NCBI GenBank assembly: GCA_017544835.1
Contig: JAFYDI010000073.1
Span: forward strand, 1-32,019
DNA from: Lachnospiraceae bacterium
GTDB taxonomy: Bacteria > Bacillota > Clostridia > Lachnospirales > Lachnospiraceae
DNA length: 32,019 bases
Direction: 5' to 3'
Positions 4,330 to 8,108 of the stretch are shown in pieces. Each line of letters starts with the position of its first letter. Position 1 is the first letter of the stretch. The notes beneath the pieces are model-generated. The model had not been told where the DNA came from, did not search any database, and saw only the letters and a program-made list of their open reading frames with translations. Both the position numbers and the translations under genes were made by a program.

Positions 4330-4339
4330 ATGTTATAAT
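4310..4339 (+). promoter_or_regulatory. Putative extended -10 promoter of the three-gene operon
   Basis: TGTTATAAT (4331-4339) is a perfect extended -10 element. TTGGGT (4310-4315) is a plausible -35 at 18-bp spacing, located inside the MATE terminator hairpin. The predicted start is about 18 nt before the ATG at 4364. Confidence 0.6.
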
Positions 4340-4363
4340 TCTTCTTGGAAAAGGAGAGATTAT

Positions 4364-5257
4364 ATGATTTCTTTTAAATGCTCCAACTGTGGCGGTGAGA
4401 TGACAATTTCCCACGCCGGAGAATTGATGTGCCCGTACTGCGGCACCAAGCACAATTTCAGTGATAAGGAGCTTGAAGGCTACAAGGTATTTCGTCATCG
4501 AATGCTTGAATATCTTGCTGCGGTTGCCGAGAAAAGGGCTAAGGCTTCGGATTTTGACTATCTGTGGACCAATTCTGCCGAGATTCTTTTTAAGACTATA
4601 GGTGATGAAGATATTACCGTGAATTACATCTATGAGTATACCGACGGAGGAATTACCAGTTATGTAGCAAGAGAAAGCGTGGTCATTCTTTTTCCTAAGG
4701 AGCATGCGCATTTGGCGGATGTTGCCAGAAGCGGGGCATCGAATGTTACGGCGCCCAAGGCCGATATGAAGAATCTTTTGCAGTATGTTCCTACGACAAA
4801 GGGAATATTTAAATTGCAGGACGGAGGCGTTCTCTGGGTAATTTCCAAGGACGAGGGAATGTTCCCGCTTGGATTGTTCGGCAATCTTGATTATCAGGAT
4901 GTGGCGTGGATTGTATCGCGACTTGAGAATCTTGCATGTCTATTTGAGTTTAGCGGAATTGTACATGGCGATATAAGTCCGGATACGGTATATATCAATC
5001 CTGCGACGCACGAGGCGGCTATACTGGGCGGCTGGTGGAAATCACACGGGACCGGCAGCGTCAGGACTACGGACCTTAAAGAAATCAGAGATACTGCGCA
5101 TAAGCTTATAGGAGATGCGTTCCCGAGCATACCTAAGATGTTTAAGGAGTTTATTTCGGGGTCGTCCAAGGCAGATGCTTTTGCCGATTTCGAATACTGG
5201 GACGAAGTGATTGAGAAAGGCCTCGGCGGCAGGCATTTTCATAAATTTGGTAAATAA
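4364..5257 (+). CDS. Zinc-ribbon protein with a degenerate protein-kinase-like domain
   Basis: A 297-residue protein. The start at 4364 is preferred over an in-frame ATG at 4310 because AAGGAG lies 7-8 nt upstream and because 4310 would lie inside a terminator. An N-terminal zinc ribbon is formed by C6, C9, C23 and C26 (KCSNCGG and CPYCG). The C-terminal half resembles a protein-kinase C-lobe: HGDISPDTVYIN (H201, D203) matches the catalytic loop. However, the following Asn is Thr, and the DFG position reads LGGW (G222-G223), so both metal-binding residues are missing. DLKEIRDTAHKLIG resembles the later C-lobe helix. A catalytically dead or scaffolding pseudokinase is inferred. The VWA gene follows 11 bp later with its own Shine-Dalgarno site. 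The fold call is by eye and moderately sure; the function is unknown. Confidence 0.75.
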   Translation: MISFKCSNCGGEMTISHAGELMCPYCGTKHNFSDKELEGYKVFRHRMLEYLAAVAEKRAKASDFDYLWTNSAEILFKTIGDEDITVNYIYEYTDGGITSYVARESVVILFPKEHAHLADVARSGASNVTAPKADMKNLLQYVPTTKGIFKLQDGGVLWVISKDEGMFPLGLFGNLDYQDVAWIVSRLENLACLFEFSGIVHGDISPDTVYINPATHEAAILGGWWKSHGTGSVRTTDLKEIRDTAHKLIGDAFPSIPKMFKEFISGSSKADAFADFEYWDEVIEKGLGGRHFHKFGK

Positions 5258-5268
5258 GGAGAGATATT

Positions 5269-6162
5269 ATGGGATTTGGTAGTTACAGAAGCTCTGACTG
5301 GAGCAAGTTAAAGGCAAGCGCGAAGATTACGGATTCTTCAAGCGTTTCGCAGATTTTTAAGAATCGTTCCATGGAGGAGCGTTTCAACCCTAAGTTTATT
5401 AATGTGAGAGAATCTATGGACTCGGAGGAGCACCCCAATTCAACGCCGGTTATCATCGGTCTTGATACTACGGGCTCCATGGGATATTTGTCCGAGGAAA
5501 TTGCCAAGAACGGTCTTAACGAGACTATGCTTAAGATATATGCGACCAAGCCTATCGAGGATCCGCAGCTTATGTTTGCGGCTATCGGTGACGTGACTGA
5601 CAGTGCGCCTTTGCAGGTTACGCAGTTTGAGTCCGACATCAGAATTGCCGAGCAGCTTTTCGCGCTTTGGATGGAAGGACGCGGCGGAGATTCGCCTGAG
5701 GATTTTGAATTGATGTGGTACTTTGCAGCCAAGCATACCAGAATTGATTCGTTTGAGAAACACGGTAAGAAGGGCTTTCTTTTTACAATCGGTGATGCCG
5801 ATGTGCATGAGATGGTGAAGGGACCTTATGTTGAGGATATCTTCAAGGATGAGTCACGTAACTATTCGTCCAAGAATCTTTATGATATGGCTTCCGAGAA
5901 GTATCAGGTGTTCCATATTCATTTAAATGACCACGGTTTGGTTCCCGCGAACTTCTCGTCAATCATGGGCGGAAGGGTAGCTGTGCTCCCGAAGTCGTCG
6001 GTTAACGCTATTCCCGAGACTATCATTACGATTATGCAGCTTGCCAACGGAGAGGACAGGGAGACTGTACTTTCGCAGTGGTCTGAGGTTGCTCGCCCGG
6101 TAGTTGAGAATGCTATTAAGAATATGACTTTTAAGTCGAAAAAGAAGGGTCTTTTCTTTTGA
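5269..6162 (+). CDS. VWA (von Willebrand factor A) domain protein
   Basis: A 297-residue soluble protein with no signal peptide or membrane segment. After about 55 residues of leader, the VWA fold begins at PVIIGLDTTGSMG. D66, T68 and S70 form a metal-ion-dependent adhesion site of the DxTxS type, completed by the later GGDSPED segment. The rest alternates hydrophobic strands (FLFTIGDADVH, VFHIHL) and helices as expected. Intracellular bacterial VWA proteins usually act as scaffolds alongside ATPases or kinases. GGAG lies before the ATG. The gene is sandwiched between the zinc-ribbon pseudokinase and the PurA-like gene and overlaps the latter by 4 bp, so the three products are probably made together. 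The partner and process are unknown. Confidence 0.85.
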   Translation: MGFGSYRSSDWSKLKASAKITDSSSVSQIFKNRSMEERFNPKFINVRESMDSEEHPNSTPVIIGLDTTGSMGYLSEEIAKNGLNETMLKIYATKPIEDPQLMFAAIGDVTDSAPLQVTQFESDIRIAEQLFALWMEGRGGDSPEDFELMWYFAAKHTRIDSFEKHGKKGFLFTIGDADVHEMVKGPYVEDIFKDESRNYSSKNLYDMASEKYQVFHIHLNDHGLVPANFSSIMGGRVAVLPKSSVNAIPETIITIMQLANGEDRETVLSQWSEVARPVVENAIKNMTFKSKKKGLFF

Positions 6163-7358
6163 GTAAGACGGTTTTTAAGGCAGTAATAGGTAAAAATTTC
6201 GGAGACGAAGGTAAGGGTCTTGCCACAGATTTTTTGTGCCTTGGCGGTGCAAAGAATCTGGTGGTGAGGGCCAATGGAGGCGCTCAGTCCGGTCACACAG
6301 TTGAGACGGGGACTAAGCGCTTTGTTTTTCATGAGTTATCGTCCGGGTCATTTAGGCATGCGGATACATACTGGGCGGCGACATATCATCCCGATTTATA
6401 TAAGCTGGCGGAAGAGATTGAGGACTTCCGGGCAGTGGGCGGATTTGTACCGAGAGTGTATGCCTCCAAGAATGCCGGAATTACAACGATTCTCGACGTT
6501 ATTCTGAATATGGCTTTTGAGACGGCTCGAGGTGTGGGTCGGCACGGAAGCTGCGGAATGGGTATCTATGAATGTGAGCTTAGGGAGCAGGCGGGTTATA
6601 AAATAACAGTTGGTGATGTTACCACGCTCGGAGCAGAAGGACTGATTCATGAATTGTTAGAAATCAGAGAAAATTATGTTTCGAAGCGATTAAACGAAGA
6701 GAAAATCGCGATTGATTCGCTCGGAGAATATACACAATTGTTGCGCGATGACAATGTTGTCATAAATTATGCGAAAACTGTGTGCAATAATGTTGGGCTG
6801 ATTGAAATTGTCGATTCGGAGCGTGAATTTTTGGCAGGATATGAACAAGTAATCTTTGAAAACGGACAGGGATTACTGCTTGATTCCGAGTGTGAGCGAT
6901 TCTATCCCAATGTGACCGGCTCTCGGACAGGGCTTGCCAATGTAGCAGCAATTCTCAACAATGTGGGAGAAAAGCTCGATGAAGTACTATATGTCTCCCG
7001 AAGCTATGTTACCAGACACGGAGCGGGAGAACTTCCTTGCGAGTGTGAGGCTTCAGATATACCGGGACTGATAACGGATGTTACCAATTTGCCCAACGAA
7101 TGGCAGGGAAAACTGCGTTTTGGGCTTCATGAATCGGTTGAGGAGTTTATAAGGCCTGTGCAGGAGGACACAAAAGCACTCGATTACAGGCCAAAGTTAA
7201 GTCTTCTTTTAACACATTTAAACGAAACTGACGGGGCTGTCATGAAACGGGACGGAAACGTGCCTGCAGAAGAGTTTGTGACGAATAAAGAGATTGCGGG
7301 ATTGTTTGATAAAGTATATTTATCCGAAGACAGATTTGCAGATAACATTAAAGGGTAA
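6159..7358 (+). CDS. Divergent adenylosuccinate-synthetase (PurA) family protein
   Basis: PurA condenses IMP with aspartate using GTP. This 399-residue homologue keeps the P-loop with the catalytic Asp (NFGDEGKG, D16), the catalytic His loop (SGHTV, H46), an IMP-loop equivalent (GRHGSCGMG, 128-136), ENGQGLLLD (about 234-242) and YVTRHGAG. It departs from canonical PurA in two places. The Arg-rich aspartate loop is replaced by a segment near residues 308-322 that keeps only K318 and R320. The guanine-recognition TKLD motif reads THLN (352-355). The substrate and nucleotide donor may therefore differ, so it should not be taken as the housekeeping purA. The start is TTG overlapping the VWA stop (TTGA), which indicates translational coupling. 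Family assignment is confident; the reaction is open. Confidence 0.85.
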   Translation: MSKTVFKAVIGKNFGDEGKGLATDFLCLGGAKNLVVRANGGAQSGHTVETGTKRFVFHELSSGSFRHADTYWAATYHPDLYKLAEEIEDFRAVGGFVPRVYASKNAGITTILDVILNMAFETARGVGRHGSCGMGIYECELREQAGYKITVGDVTTLGAEGLIHELLEIRENYVSKRLNEEKIAIDSLGEYTQLLRDDNVVINYAKTVCNNVGLIEIVDSEREFLAGYEQVIFENGQGLLLDSECERFYPNVTGSRTGLANVAAILNNVGEKLDEVLYVSRSYVTRHGAGELPCECEASDIPGLITDVTNLPNEWQGKLRFGLHESVEEFIRPVQEDTKALDYRPKLSLLLTHLNETDGAVMKRDGNVPAEEFVTNKEIAGLFDKVYLSEDRFADNIKG

Positions 7359-7376
7359 GCAGGAAGCTTACCCTTT
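7350..7376. terminator. Shared hairpin between convergent genes
   Basis: AAAGGGTAAGC (7350-7360) pairs perfectly with GCTTACCCTTT (7366-7376), with a 5-nt loop. The stop codons of the PurA-like gene and of rsmE both lie inside the stem. There is no long T tract on either side, so termination strength is uncertain. Confidence 0.65.
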
Positions 7377-8108
7377 ATCTAACATCATCATTAAGTTACT
7401 TAATACCACCATACCTGCGGTTTCGGTGCGAAGGATTCTCTTACCAAGAGTGATTATTTCAAAGCCTGCATTGCGGGCTTTTTCAATTTCCGTCTGCTCG
7501 AAGCCGCCTTCGGGACCTATGAAGATTGCAACGGAGTCATCGGGTTTAACCGATTCAAATAGCTTACGCGTATGAGCCATTCCGTCGGCCATCTCGTAGG
7601 GAACCCACTTATGTGTACACTCGCTTGCCCGTGCAACTGCCTCGCCGAAAGTCATAGGCTTTGCAATCTCGGGAATCACAGTACGTTTCGATTGCTTGGC
7701 TGCCGCTTCGGAAATCGCCTGCCAGCGGGCAATCTTGGAATCCGCTTTCTTGGGATCGAGCTTCATGACACATCGCTTCATTTCCACGGGGATAATCTCG
7801 AATGCTCCAAGTTCTACGGCTTTCTGAATTATCAGTTCCATCTTGTCGGACTTAGGAAGCCCCTGATAGAGGTATATCTTGCAGGGAAGCTCTGTTCCTT
7901 CTTTGATAAACGCAAGCTCACAAGTAATCGCGTCATCGGTAAGCTCACGAACAATGCATCTATACTCGGCTTCGGATTCGGTGGTACTAACCGAAATCTC
8001 TTCGCCCAGCTTCATCCTAAGCACGTTCTTGATATGGTTAACGTCCTTGCCGGTTATTGTAATTGTCTTATCGCATATAGCGCTCGGATCTACGAAAAAG
8101 TGATACAT
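7368..8108 (-). CDS. rsmE: 16S rRNA (uracil1498-N3)-methyltransferase RsmE
   Basis: SAM-dependent SPOUT (knotted) methyltransferase that makes m3U1498 in 16S rRNA. The start at 8108 (MYHFFVDPS) is the family-typical N-terminus and has GGAAAGG 8 nt upstream; an in-frame ATG 13 codons earlier lacks this support. The 246-residue product has the N-terminal PUA-like region (GKDVNHIKNVLRMKLGE), the KSDKMELIIQKAVELGA motif, AISEAAAKQSKR, and the C-terminal knot motifs FIGPEGGFEQTE and LGKRILRTETAG. In many Firmicutes rsmE is co-directional and directly downstream of prmA. Here it is divergent from prmA across a 525-bp repeat-bearing gap and convergent with the PurA-like gene, which implies a local inversion or re-insertion. 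Confidence 0.96.
   Translation of the reverse strand: MYHFFVDPSAICDKTITITGKDVNHIKNVLRMKLGEEISVSTTESEAEYRCIVRELTDDAITCELAFIKEGTELPCKIYLYQGLPKSDKMELIIQKAVELGAFEIIPVEMKRCVMKLDPKKADSKIARWQAISEAAAKQSKRTVIPEIAKPMTFGEAVARASECTHKWVPYEMADGMAHTRKLFESVKPDDSVAIFIGPEGGFEQTEIEKARNAGFEIITLGKRILRTETAGMVVLSNLMMMLDKG

Follow-up and report, generated by a model that had tools for sequence, protein, structure and literature searches.

TerY-P triads and the kinase-PP2C-vWA sets combine a zinc-ribbon kinase-like protein and a von Willebrand A (VWA) protein with a PP2C phosphatase partner. In the available text of PMC7159879, genes for a zinc-ribbon kinase, a PP2C and a vWA protein lie near GAP1-N2 systems; that of PMC9503650 describes systems of a Nudix-TF, an ADP-ribosylglycohydrolase and a phosphatase, often with a vWA protein, and that of PMC7824862 describes MoxR-vWA chaperone pairs in jumbo phages. 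For the purine enzymes, the available part of PMC12884076 counts 481 viral PF00709 proteins, with a PurZ group of 151 sequences, four of them archaeal. Here we describe a locus in which elements of both kinds meet. It lies in a 32,019-nucleotide stretch of DNA of a Lachnospiraceae bacterium (contig JAFYDI010000073.1, positions 1-32,019, assembly GCA_017544835.1; the window) and consists of three consecutive genes, which we call KIN (zinc-ribbon pseudokinase), VWA and PUR (PurA-like). The three-gene operon is real. Chance does not account for it, because other bacteria, as well as phages and plasmids, have their copies in this same arrangement. KIN-VWA-PUR is a recurrent unit common to all three.

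Gene order was followed in the best 80 of at least 542 confirmed relatives in GTDB contigs and in the best 80 of 279 in IMG/VR, best-scoring loci that lean towards the window's kind. PUR immediately follows VWA in all 78 testable GTDB loci, in 10 of 10 loci from the G-numbered genomes and in 63 of 79 testable IMG/VR loci. Of the remaining 16, 13 have at least one intervening open reading frame (ORF), one has PUR upstream and two lack PUR. One locus, L082, was scored as lacking VWA in this count owing to an overlapping ORF; both genes are present there. These counts establish the predicted VWA gene as nearly always a neighbor of PUR. Upstream, no more than three genes away, KIN is found in 72 of 79 loci from GTDB and in 23 of 80 from IMG/VR, the upstream gene of the other phages belonging to families c4 or c5, to c12, or being unclassified (23 of 80). 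Among five isolate phages, PUR comes next after VWA in three and after a small ORF in two; Mycobacteriophage Pleione has the order kinase, VWA, small ORF, PUR. In the available text of the Pinkcreek announcement, the gene numbers of a serine/threonine kinase and of a PurA-like protein differ by three. A set of 50,697 phage records gave 206 VWA matches and 224 PUR matches, the PUR count taking in records without a VWA match and being unsorted by protein. The 72,556 plasmids gave 21 VWA matches, and all four plasmid loci examined (Acetobacter, Agrobacterium, Rhodococcus and Variovorax) have matches to KIN, VWA and PUR.

A dedicated three-gene module had been proposed in the first-pass annotation of this DNA, and the recurrence of the gene order in GTDB, IMG/VR, phages and plasmids bears this out: the three genes co-occur widely, not in this strain only. 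Nearer to the window the distribution is patchy. VWA is present in 12 of 200 genomes of the family, 9 of 18 of the genus, 10 of 295 of the order and 1 of 398 sampled from the phylum; the genome of the window itself is among the carriers in every sample. Strong PUR matches (E of 2.5e-42 or better) are found in the same 12 family genomes and in G092, which has a PUR fragment near a contig end. That the module was acquired, as also proposed at first, is probable in view of these counts, of the varied flanks and of the sharing with phages. The four closest loci (L050-L053) have the module at the same place as the window. A prophage remnant in the window was considered and rejected on the basis of this shared place and of neighbors that appear by eye to be housekeeping genes, of which only the MATE gene was scanned.

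The window PUR matches PF00709 with an E value of 3.1e-35, over residues 8-298 only, the first two thirds of the Pfam model. It is not the strain's only purA, since a separate canonical purA at C17 of the same genome scores 547 bits, compared to 121 for PUR. For a residue audit, 161 of 174 PUR sequences were aligned with 19 canonical PurA rows, including that of Escherichia coli, whose numbering is used here. The rows were selected by the pattern G[DN]xGKG, which left the choice of Asp or Asn, and His41, free to vary. Thirteen rows were dropped: eight outside 330-520 amino acids, and five in the length range without the pattern, of which three are variants that keep the Asp and two are ORFs called after the motif. 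Asp13 and His41 are each present in all 161 audited sequences. Asn38 is replaced by Gln in 158, Thr129 by Cys in 149 and Val273 by His in 161 of the 161. The loop with Arg303 and Arg305, which we take to be the aspartate binders (the roles of the other numbered residues are likewise assumed), is four residues shorter and lacks both arginines in 161 of 161 in the alignments made. A global comparison of profile hidden Markov models (HMM-HMM), built from separately made alignments, also yields the shorter loop. Asn38, Thr129, Val273, Arg303 and Arg305 are all kept in the 19 canonical rows. The PURs of the four plasmids, which stand outside the audited set, agree in Asp13, in His41, in the substitutions and in a loop four residues shorter.

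At the level of sequence, the audit shows that PUR derives from PurA and has retained the catalytic Asp and His, with an altered pocket and a shortened aspartate-binding loop. The site of the normal amino-acid partner seems to have been lost. By its sequence PUR is neither an ordinary PurA nor PurZ, because Asp13 and His41 are kept but Asn38, Val273 and the aspartate loop are changed. The initial description as an altered PurA homologue agrees with the PF00709 match and these residue changes, and the accompanying idea of a role for the operon in making a modified purine nucleotide, which is still an inference, now has residue evidence. Within the canonical set, 18 of the 19 rows (not E. coli) have Leu for Gln224 and Lys for Arg143, and 17 of 19 have Val at 331 (window-family purA L001 and L033-L049, plus E. 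coli). The PUR of L017:8097-9425 and of other Bxz1-type records is annotated as a 2-aminooxy adenylosuccinate synthetase. The Pleione PUR keeps Asp13 and His273 and is not PurZ.

PUR might instead be a PurZ-like modified-base enzyme for hypermodified phage DNA, with VWA and KIN as accessories and with the set acquired by bacteria. The protein falls in phrog_1211, described as '2-aminooxy adenylosuccinate synthetase'; many carriers are large phages, and 85 of the 161 audited PURs have Asn at position 333, like phiVC8 PurZ. Yet PMC12884076, in its available text, reports that Asp13 has become Ser in each of the 147 PurZ sequences from phages and has PurZ condensing aspartate, whereas PUR keeps the Asp and has the shortened loop. 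Moreover, Clostridia carry the module on chromosomes, and besides VWA, PUR, KIN, c4 and c5 no cluster is found in more than 9 of 85 viral loci, whose neighbors are partly annotated. We consider a modified-base enzyme unlikely. A quick tree of PUR (145 rows, with 48 of 142 inner branches open) places canonical PurA in one clade, with 98 in the Shimodaira-Hasegawa-like approximate likelihood-ratio test (SH-aLRT). The window PUR is in a clade of 50 rows (SH-aLRT 99; 48 bacterial, 1 viral and the window) among mostly viral rows, and the bacterial label requires 7 changes on the tree. The tree, in which many forks are weakly supported, suggests a phage-first origin.

Pfam, searched up to E 1, gave nothing for the window VWA, and a PDB sequence search with the VWA profile gave no match below E 0.1. 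A VWA fold is supported by the AlphaFold2 model, with a mean predicted local distance difference test (pLDDT) score of 92.6, and by Foldseek, which returned 120 PDB matches at E≤0.001, the best being integrin beta subunits and other VWA domains, with TM-scores below 0.6. The metal-ion-dependent adhesion site (MIDAS) residues were compared in alignment A4, comprising the window and 98 of 138 listed references, hand-thinned and with rows trimmed to the motif MGx[GA]; the invariance of M1 and G2 in A4 is partly by construction, and the count given for the N-terminal tail in Table 1 is the fairer one. This tail is conserved as MGxGx[WYF]. The motif starts with ATG in 169 of 172 cases and has a Shine-Dalgarno-like sequence upstream in 167. 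When the first start of the ORF is taken, without trimming, 154 of 183 VWA sequences open with MG, compared to 86 of 1970 other ORFs of at least 100 amino acids, and MGxG opens two of these 1970. Several of the 11 VWA sequences without the motif still start with MG.

In viral loci the type of C-terminal tail goes with the upstream partner. This was counted in 85 viral loci (14 c5, 9 c12, 26 KIN, 18 c4 and 18 unclassified) and in 88 bacterial KIN loci. The last residue of viral VWA is Trp in 13 of 14 c5 loci and Leu in 9 of 9 c12 loci. An ending in Phe, Trp, Leu or Tyr is seen in 20 of 26 viral KIN loci, in 1 of 18 c4 loci and in 76 of 88 bacterial KIN loci. In seven loci VWA is duplicated or triplicated in tandem (L076, L078, L079, L093, L103, L111 and L129). 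The N-terminal tail is present in 14 of these 15 copies; all seven first copies end in Phe, as does one of the eight that come later. The pLDDT of the VWA model averages 70 over the first ten residues and 69 over the last block, with 81-98 for the blocks between; these values fit tails that would meet partners, although they prove nothing. We read the N-terminal tail as probably serving PUR and the C-terminal tail as probably serving the variable partner.

KIN has only weak, zinc-ribbon-type matches to Pfam in the window, and the KIN profile found no PDB sequence below E 0.039. Its kinase fold is predicted by AlphaFold2 with a mean pLDDT of 89.8. Foldseek gave 1263 matches at E≤0.001, and the 50 listed are protein-kinase entries, VRK3 and STK40 among them. 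In an alignment of 73 sequences (A5; the window and 72 of 81 listed references, hand-thinned), the Asp of the HRD motif is present in 8 and that of DFG in 4, with alignment and motif used to assign the positions; in the window a Gly replaces the Asp of DFG. The earlier reading as a pseudokinase is in keeping with a kinase fold whose catalytic residues are mostly lost. The Pleione kinase matches Pkinase at 8.7e-9. The head of the protein comes in two forms. All four zinc-ribbon columns are Cys in 56 of the 73 sequences, 17 have an HPD motif, and the two features never occur together; two rows lack both the two early CxxC and HPD. Matches to DnaJ recur in KIN, below the Pfam cut-off (8.1e-5 to 0.013). 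The HPD motif of J-domains should recruit Hsp70. The alignment and the model establish KIN as a predicted pseudokinase with an exchangeable zinc-ribbon or J-domain head.

In many phages other small proteins occupy the position of KIN. Families c4 and c5, with Met-rich tails, replace it upstream of VWA in 32 of the 85 viral loci (for example, L015:6222-6935, L016:5777-6568 and L018:6391-6999), and the two are homologous to each other (HHalign probability 97.1). The J-domain motif and the Met-rich tails would suit a dead or regulatory PurA that senses purine nucleotides within a nucleotide-gated chaperone or a scaffold for protein assembly, and the available text of PMC9503650 calls the vWA domain a peptide-binding chaperone. 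We regard such a sensor as possible, if rather improbable, in the face of the constancy of Asp13 and His41 across very divergent PURs, these being the choices left free in the audit. Inteins usually occupy conserved active sites. One viral PUR (L141:3403-5925) has a long insert, putatively intein-like, straight after its His41 (AGH) motif, which also argues against a dead enzyme.

The flanks of the module were surveyed in Clostridia through 109 of 187 candidate flanking proteins, and no Pfam family occurs in more than 3 of the 109; a constant fourth partner in Clostridia was rejected on this basis. Some copies stand beside NrtR regulators or genes of nicotinamide adenine dinucleotide (NAD) salvage. 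In L095 and in L215-L219 (five genomes of the window's family), an NrtR-type gene (Nudix and NrtR_WHD) adjoins the module and is read from its strand. NrtR is divergent from the module on the Agrobacterium plasmid (NrtR_WHD 2e-15), and an NrtR-type gene follows PUR on the Rhodococcus plasmid, with matches below the Pfam cut-offs. Genes for NAMPT or NMNAT-Nudix are present in 9 of 18 c4 loci compared to 1 of 67 other viral loci, and phiKT1024 has a NADAR gene upstream; all these context counts ignore kinship. Other neighbors were seen in phages. Rhizobium phage Y65 has a PRTase_3 gene (PF15610, 9.4e-46; L016:2570-3424), of a family known from Ter systems, some genes before VWA. A gene annotated as a TROVE-domain protein in phiKT1024 lies downstream of PUR in Vibrio phages (L015:11354-12862 and L019:9566-10867), and clustering finds its relatives in 6 viral loci. 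A gene for an RNA ligase (PF09414) is near the module at L138:10170-11423 and in four other viral loci, four of these five being of the KIN type.

The patchy distribution and the NrtR context of some copies are also what a bacterial anti-phage defense system would display, had phages copied it for inter-phage competition, and VWA and kinase proteins recur in conflict systems (PMC9503650 and PMC7159879, in their available texts). PADLOC 2.0, in contrast, gives one match to KIN at E 0.04 and none to VWA or PUR up to E 1, and no PADLOC family matches more than 4 of the 109 flanking proteins of the Clostridia loci. The main bacterial PUR clade lying among viral rows, subject to the weak forks noted above, also speaks against it. 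A defense origin is doubtful in our judgment.

We favor a scheme in which VWA is an adaptor, whose common N-terminal tail would meet the common partner PUR and whose C-terminal tail would meet the variable one. PUR would still activate a purine nucleotide by O6 phosphorylation and would couple the activated nucleotide to an amine other than that of aspartate, while KIN or its substitute would supply specificity or contact with Hsp70. The module might serve in stress or conflict involving purine nucleotides or NAD/ADP-ribose, the latter because some bacterial copies stand beside an NrtR-type regulator and one phage group beside NAD-salvage genes. This frame of an adaptor VWA, a non-aspartate purine-nucleotide ligase and a KIN-type specificity or Hsp70 contact, in which every functional step is inferred, has in our estimation an even chance of being correct. 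A more specific version, which we hold to be very improbable, is that PUR links a purine nucleotide, through C6, to the alpha-amine that the first glycine of VWA exposes after removal of Met, in place of that of aspartate, so tagging a protein N-terminus with a nucleotide through the chemistry of adenylosuccinate synthetase, and that the pseudokinase or its substitutes read or deliver the tagged VWA, with NAD/ADP-ribose stress as the trigger in some hosts.

Several observations weigh against this scheme. On the side of gene order, these are the two testable IMG/VR loci without PUR and the one with PUR upstream, and G111, whose PUR has no adjoining VWA, the VWA being at the end of another contig. 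For PUR, the local HMM-HMM match stops just before the loop, which leaves the loop alignment uncertain, and in another register, considered by eye, position 305 would still be an Arg. The C-terminal part is not lost in all PURs, as judged from the alignment to the family model, because the Rhodococcus PUR matches PF00709 almost full-length (1.7e-60). For the tails, 8 of 18 viral loci without a recognized partner also end in Phe, Trp, Leu or Tyr, and only one of the four plasmid VWAs, all of the KIN type, ends in Phe, the N-terminal tail being present in 4 of 4. By their predicted proteins, the plasmid rows strengthen the evidence on PUR and the N-terminal tail and weaken the C-terminal rule. 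The counts of tails by partner ignore kinship and include ORFs cut by contig ends, and mutual information over 157 VWA-PUR pairs is dominated by clade-marking positions. For the NAD link, no NrtR or NAD gene adjoins the operon in the window, and no NrtR is present in L211-L214, four group-1 loci of the G-numbered genomes with long flanks. Within the 80 GTDB loci, as clustered by BLAST, NrtR is adjacent only in L095, with that of L073 three genes away. The NAD link may thus belong to particular lineages, and the c4 phages may form a single one.

Within the window, KIN and VWA are separated by 11 bp, and VWA and PUR overlap by 4 bp (TGA/TTG), spacings that the first-pass annotation had given and with which the ORF coordinates agree. 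Its claim of a single promoter for the three genes is plausible. An extended -10 element can be recognized by eye after the T-run hairpin behind the MATE gene; the -35 is poor and the promoter scan does not list the element. The hairpin said to close the operon exists, though the scan lists it for the minus strand (the convergent gene) only, and no T-run was seen by eye after it on the plus strand.

Table 1. Positions in the window of the KIN-VWA-PUR genes and of their sequence elements
Feature	Position	Strand	Description	Basis
Extended -10 promoter-like element	4331-4339	+	TGTTATAAT; poor -35	By-eye reading; not listed by promoter scan
Shine-Dalgarno-like sequence	4351-4358	+	AAGGAGAG; precedes KIN	By-eye reading
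KIN	4364-5257	+	Zinc-ribbon pseudokinase, 297 amino acids; four-Cys zinc ribbon at about 4379-4441	AlphaFold2, Foldseek, alignment
VWA	5269-6162	+	MIDAS-containing von Willebrand A protein, 297 amino acids; phrog_2971	AlphaFold2, Foldseek, alignment
VWA N-terminal tail	5269-5286	+	MGFGSY; 172 of 183 VWA sequences have the motif [MVL]Gx[GA]x[WYFH]	
MIDAS motif	5464-5478	+	DTTGS; D66, T68 and S70 invariant in 99 rows	Alignment A4
VWA C-terminal tail	6148-6159	+	GLFF; tail type varies with the upstream partner in viral relatives	
PUR	6159-7358	+	PurA-like protein, 399 amino acids; TTG start overlaps the VWA stop	PF00709, alignment
Catalytic loop	6201-6218	+	GDEGKG (E. coli Asp13, Lys16), retained	Alignment
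His41 segment	6276-6299	+	GGAQSGHT; His41 kept, Asn38 to Gln	Alignment
His codon	7017-7019	+	Position 273 in E. coli numbering; all 19 canonical PurA rows have Val	Alignment
Segment replacing the aspartate-binding loop	7083-7124	+	TNLPNEWQGKLRFG; Arg303 and Arg305 absent as aligned	Alignments, HMM-HMM
12-bp hairpin	7349-7377		Between PUR and the convergent gene	Scan lists minus strand only

Compared to PurA, PUR shares the PF00709 match and the GDEGKG and His41 motifs; it differs by Asn38 to Gln, Thr129 to Cys, Val273 to His and the shortened aspartate loop, and it is a second copy beside a canonical purA. PurZ and PurZ0 (2-aminoadenylosuccinate synthetase of Z-DNA phages) are, like PUR, phage-borne relatives of PurA, and PUR has a weak match to the PurZ model of NCBIfam (4e-11). 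The PurZ of phiVC8 has Ser13 and Val273, whereas PUR has Asp13 and His273 in 161 of 161 each, and the retained Asp13 rules out PUR as a PurZ. The main text of PMC12884076, in its available part, has no occurrence of von Willebrand, and its section 24 has no description of the non-PurZ viral PF00709 proteins. The TerY-P triads and the kinase-PP2C-vWA sets share with the module a zinc-ribbon kinase-like protein beside a standalone MIDAS VWA protein. In KIN-VWA-PUR, in contrast, the kinase residues are mostly lost, a PurA homologue is the third member and no PP2C is present in the operon; nor is one among the 25 of 175 families listed for the 109 Clostridia flanking proteins, where a rare one is possible. 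The resemblance to TerY-type triads noted at first therefore does not amount to membership, which is ruled out by the PF00709 third gene and by the scarcity of the HRD Asp (8 of 73) and DFG Asp (4 of 73); the KIN zinc ribbon scores 18.8 bits with TerY_C, for which the cut-off is 28.4. Some copies of the module combine an NrtR-type Nudix regulator with VWA, as do the Nudix-TF systems of PMC9503650 in its available text, and the module differs by the PurA homologue in its core. With the MoxR-vWA pairs of PMC7824862, likewise as available, the module shares a VWA protein in large phages, and no MoxR is found in the KIN-VWA-PUR operon, to which that search was confined.

Neither PurA nor adenylosuccinate is mentioned in the main texts of PMC7824862, PMC9503650 and PMC7159879. 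The literature searched gave no account of the module, a search that left out most subscription journals and does not prove absence. In KIN-VWA-PUR an enzyme fold of purine biosynthesis would have been reworked, together with a pseudokinase and a VWA protein that resembles an adaptor, into a recurrent module found in gut Clostridia, on plasmids and in large phages. Should the acceptor be something other than aspartate, the family would hold a new purine-nucleotide ligation reaction; should it be the N-terminus of the partner, proteins would be modified in a way that is new. Many phage genes that now carry the annotation adenylosuccinate synthetase or 2-aminooxy adenylosuccinate synthetase would be explained as well. 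Judged from the predicted proteins, we rate the module, though not its folds, as new in kind, because it lacks features that define PurZ and features that define the TerY-type triads.

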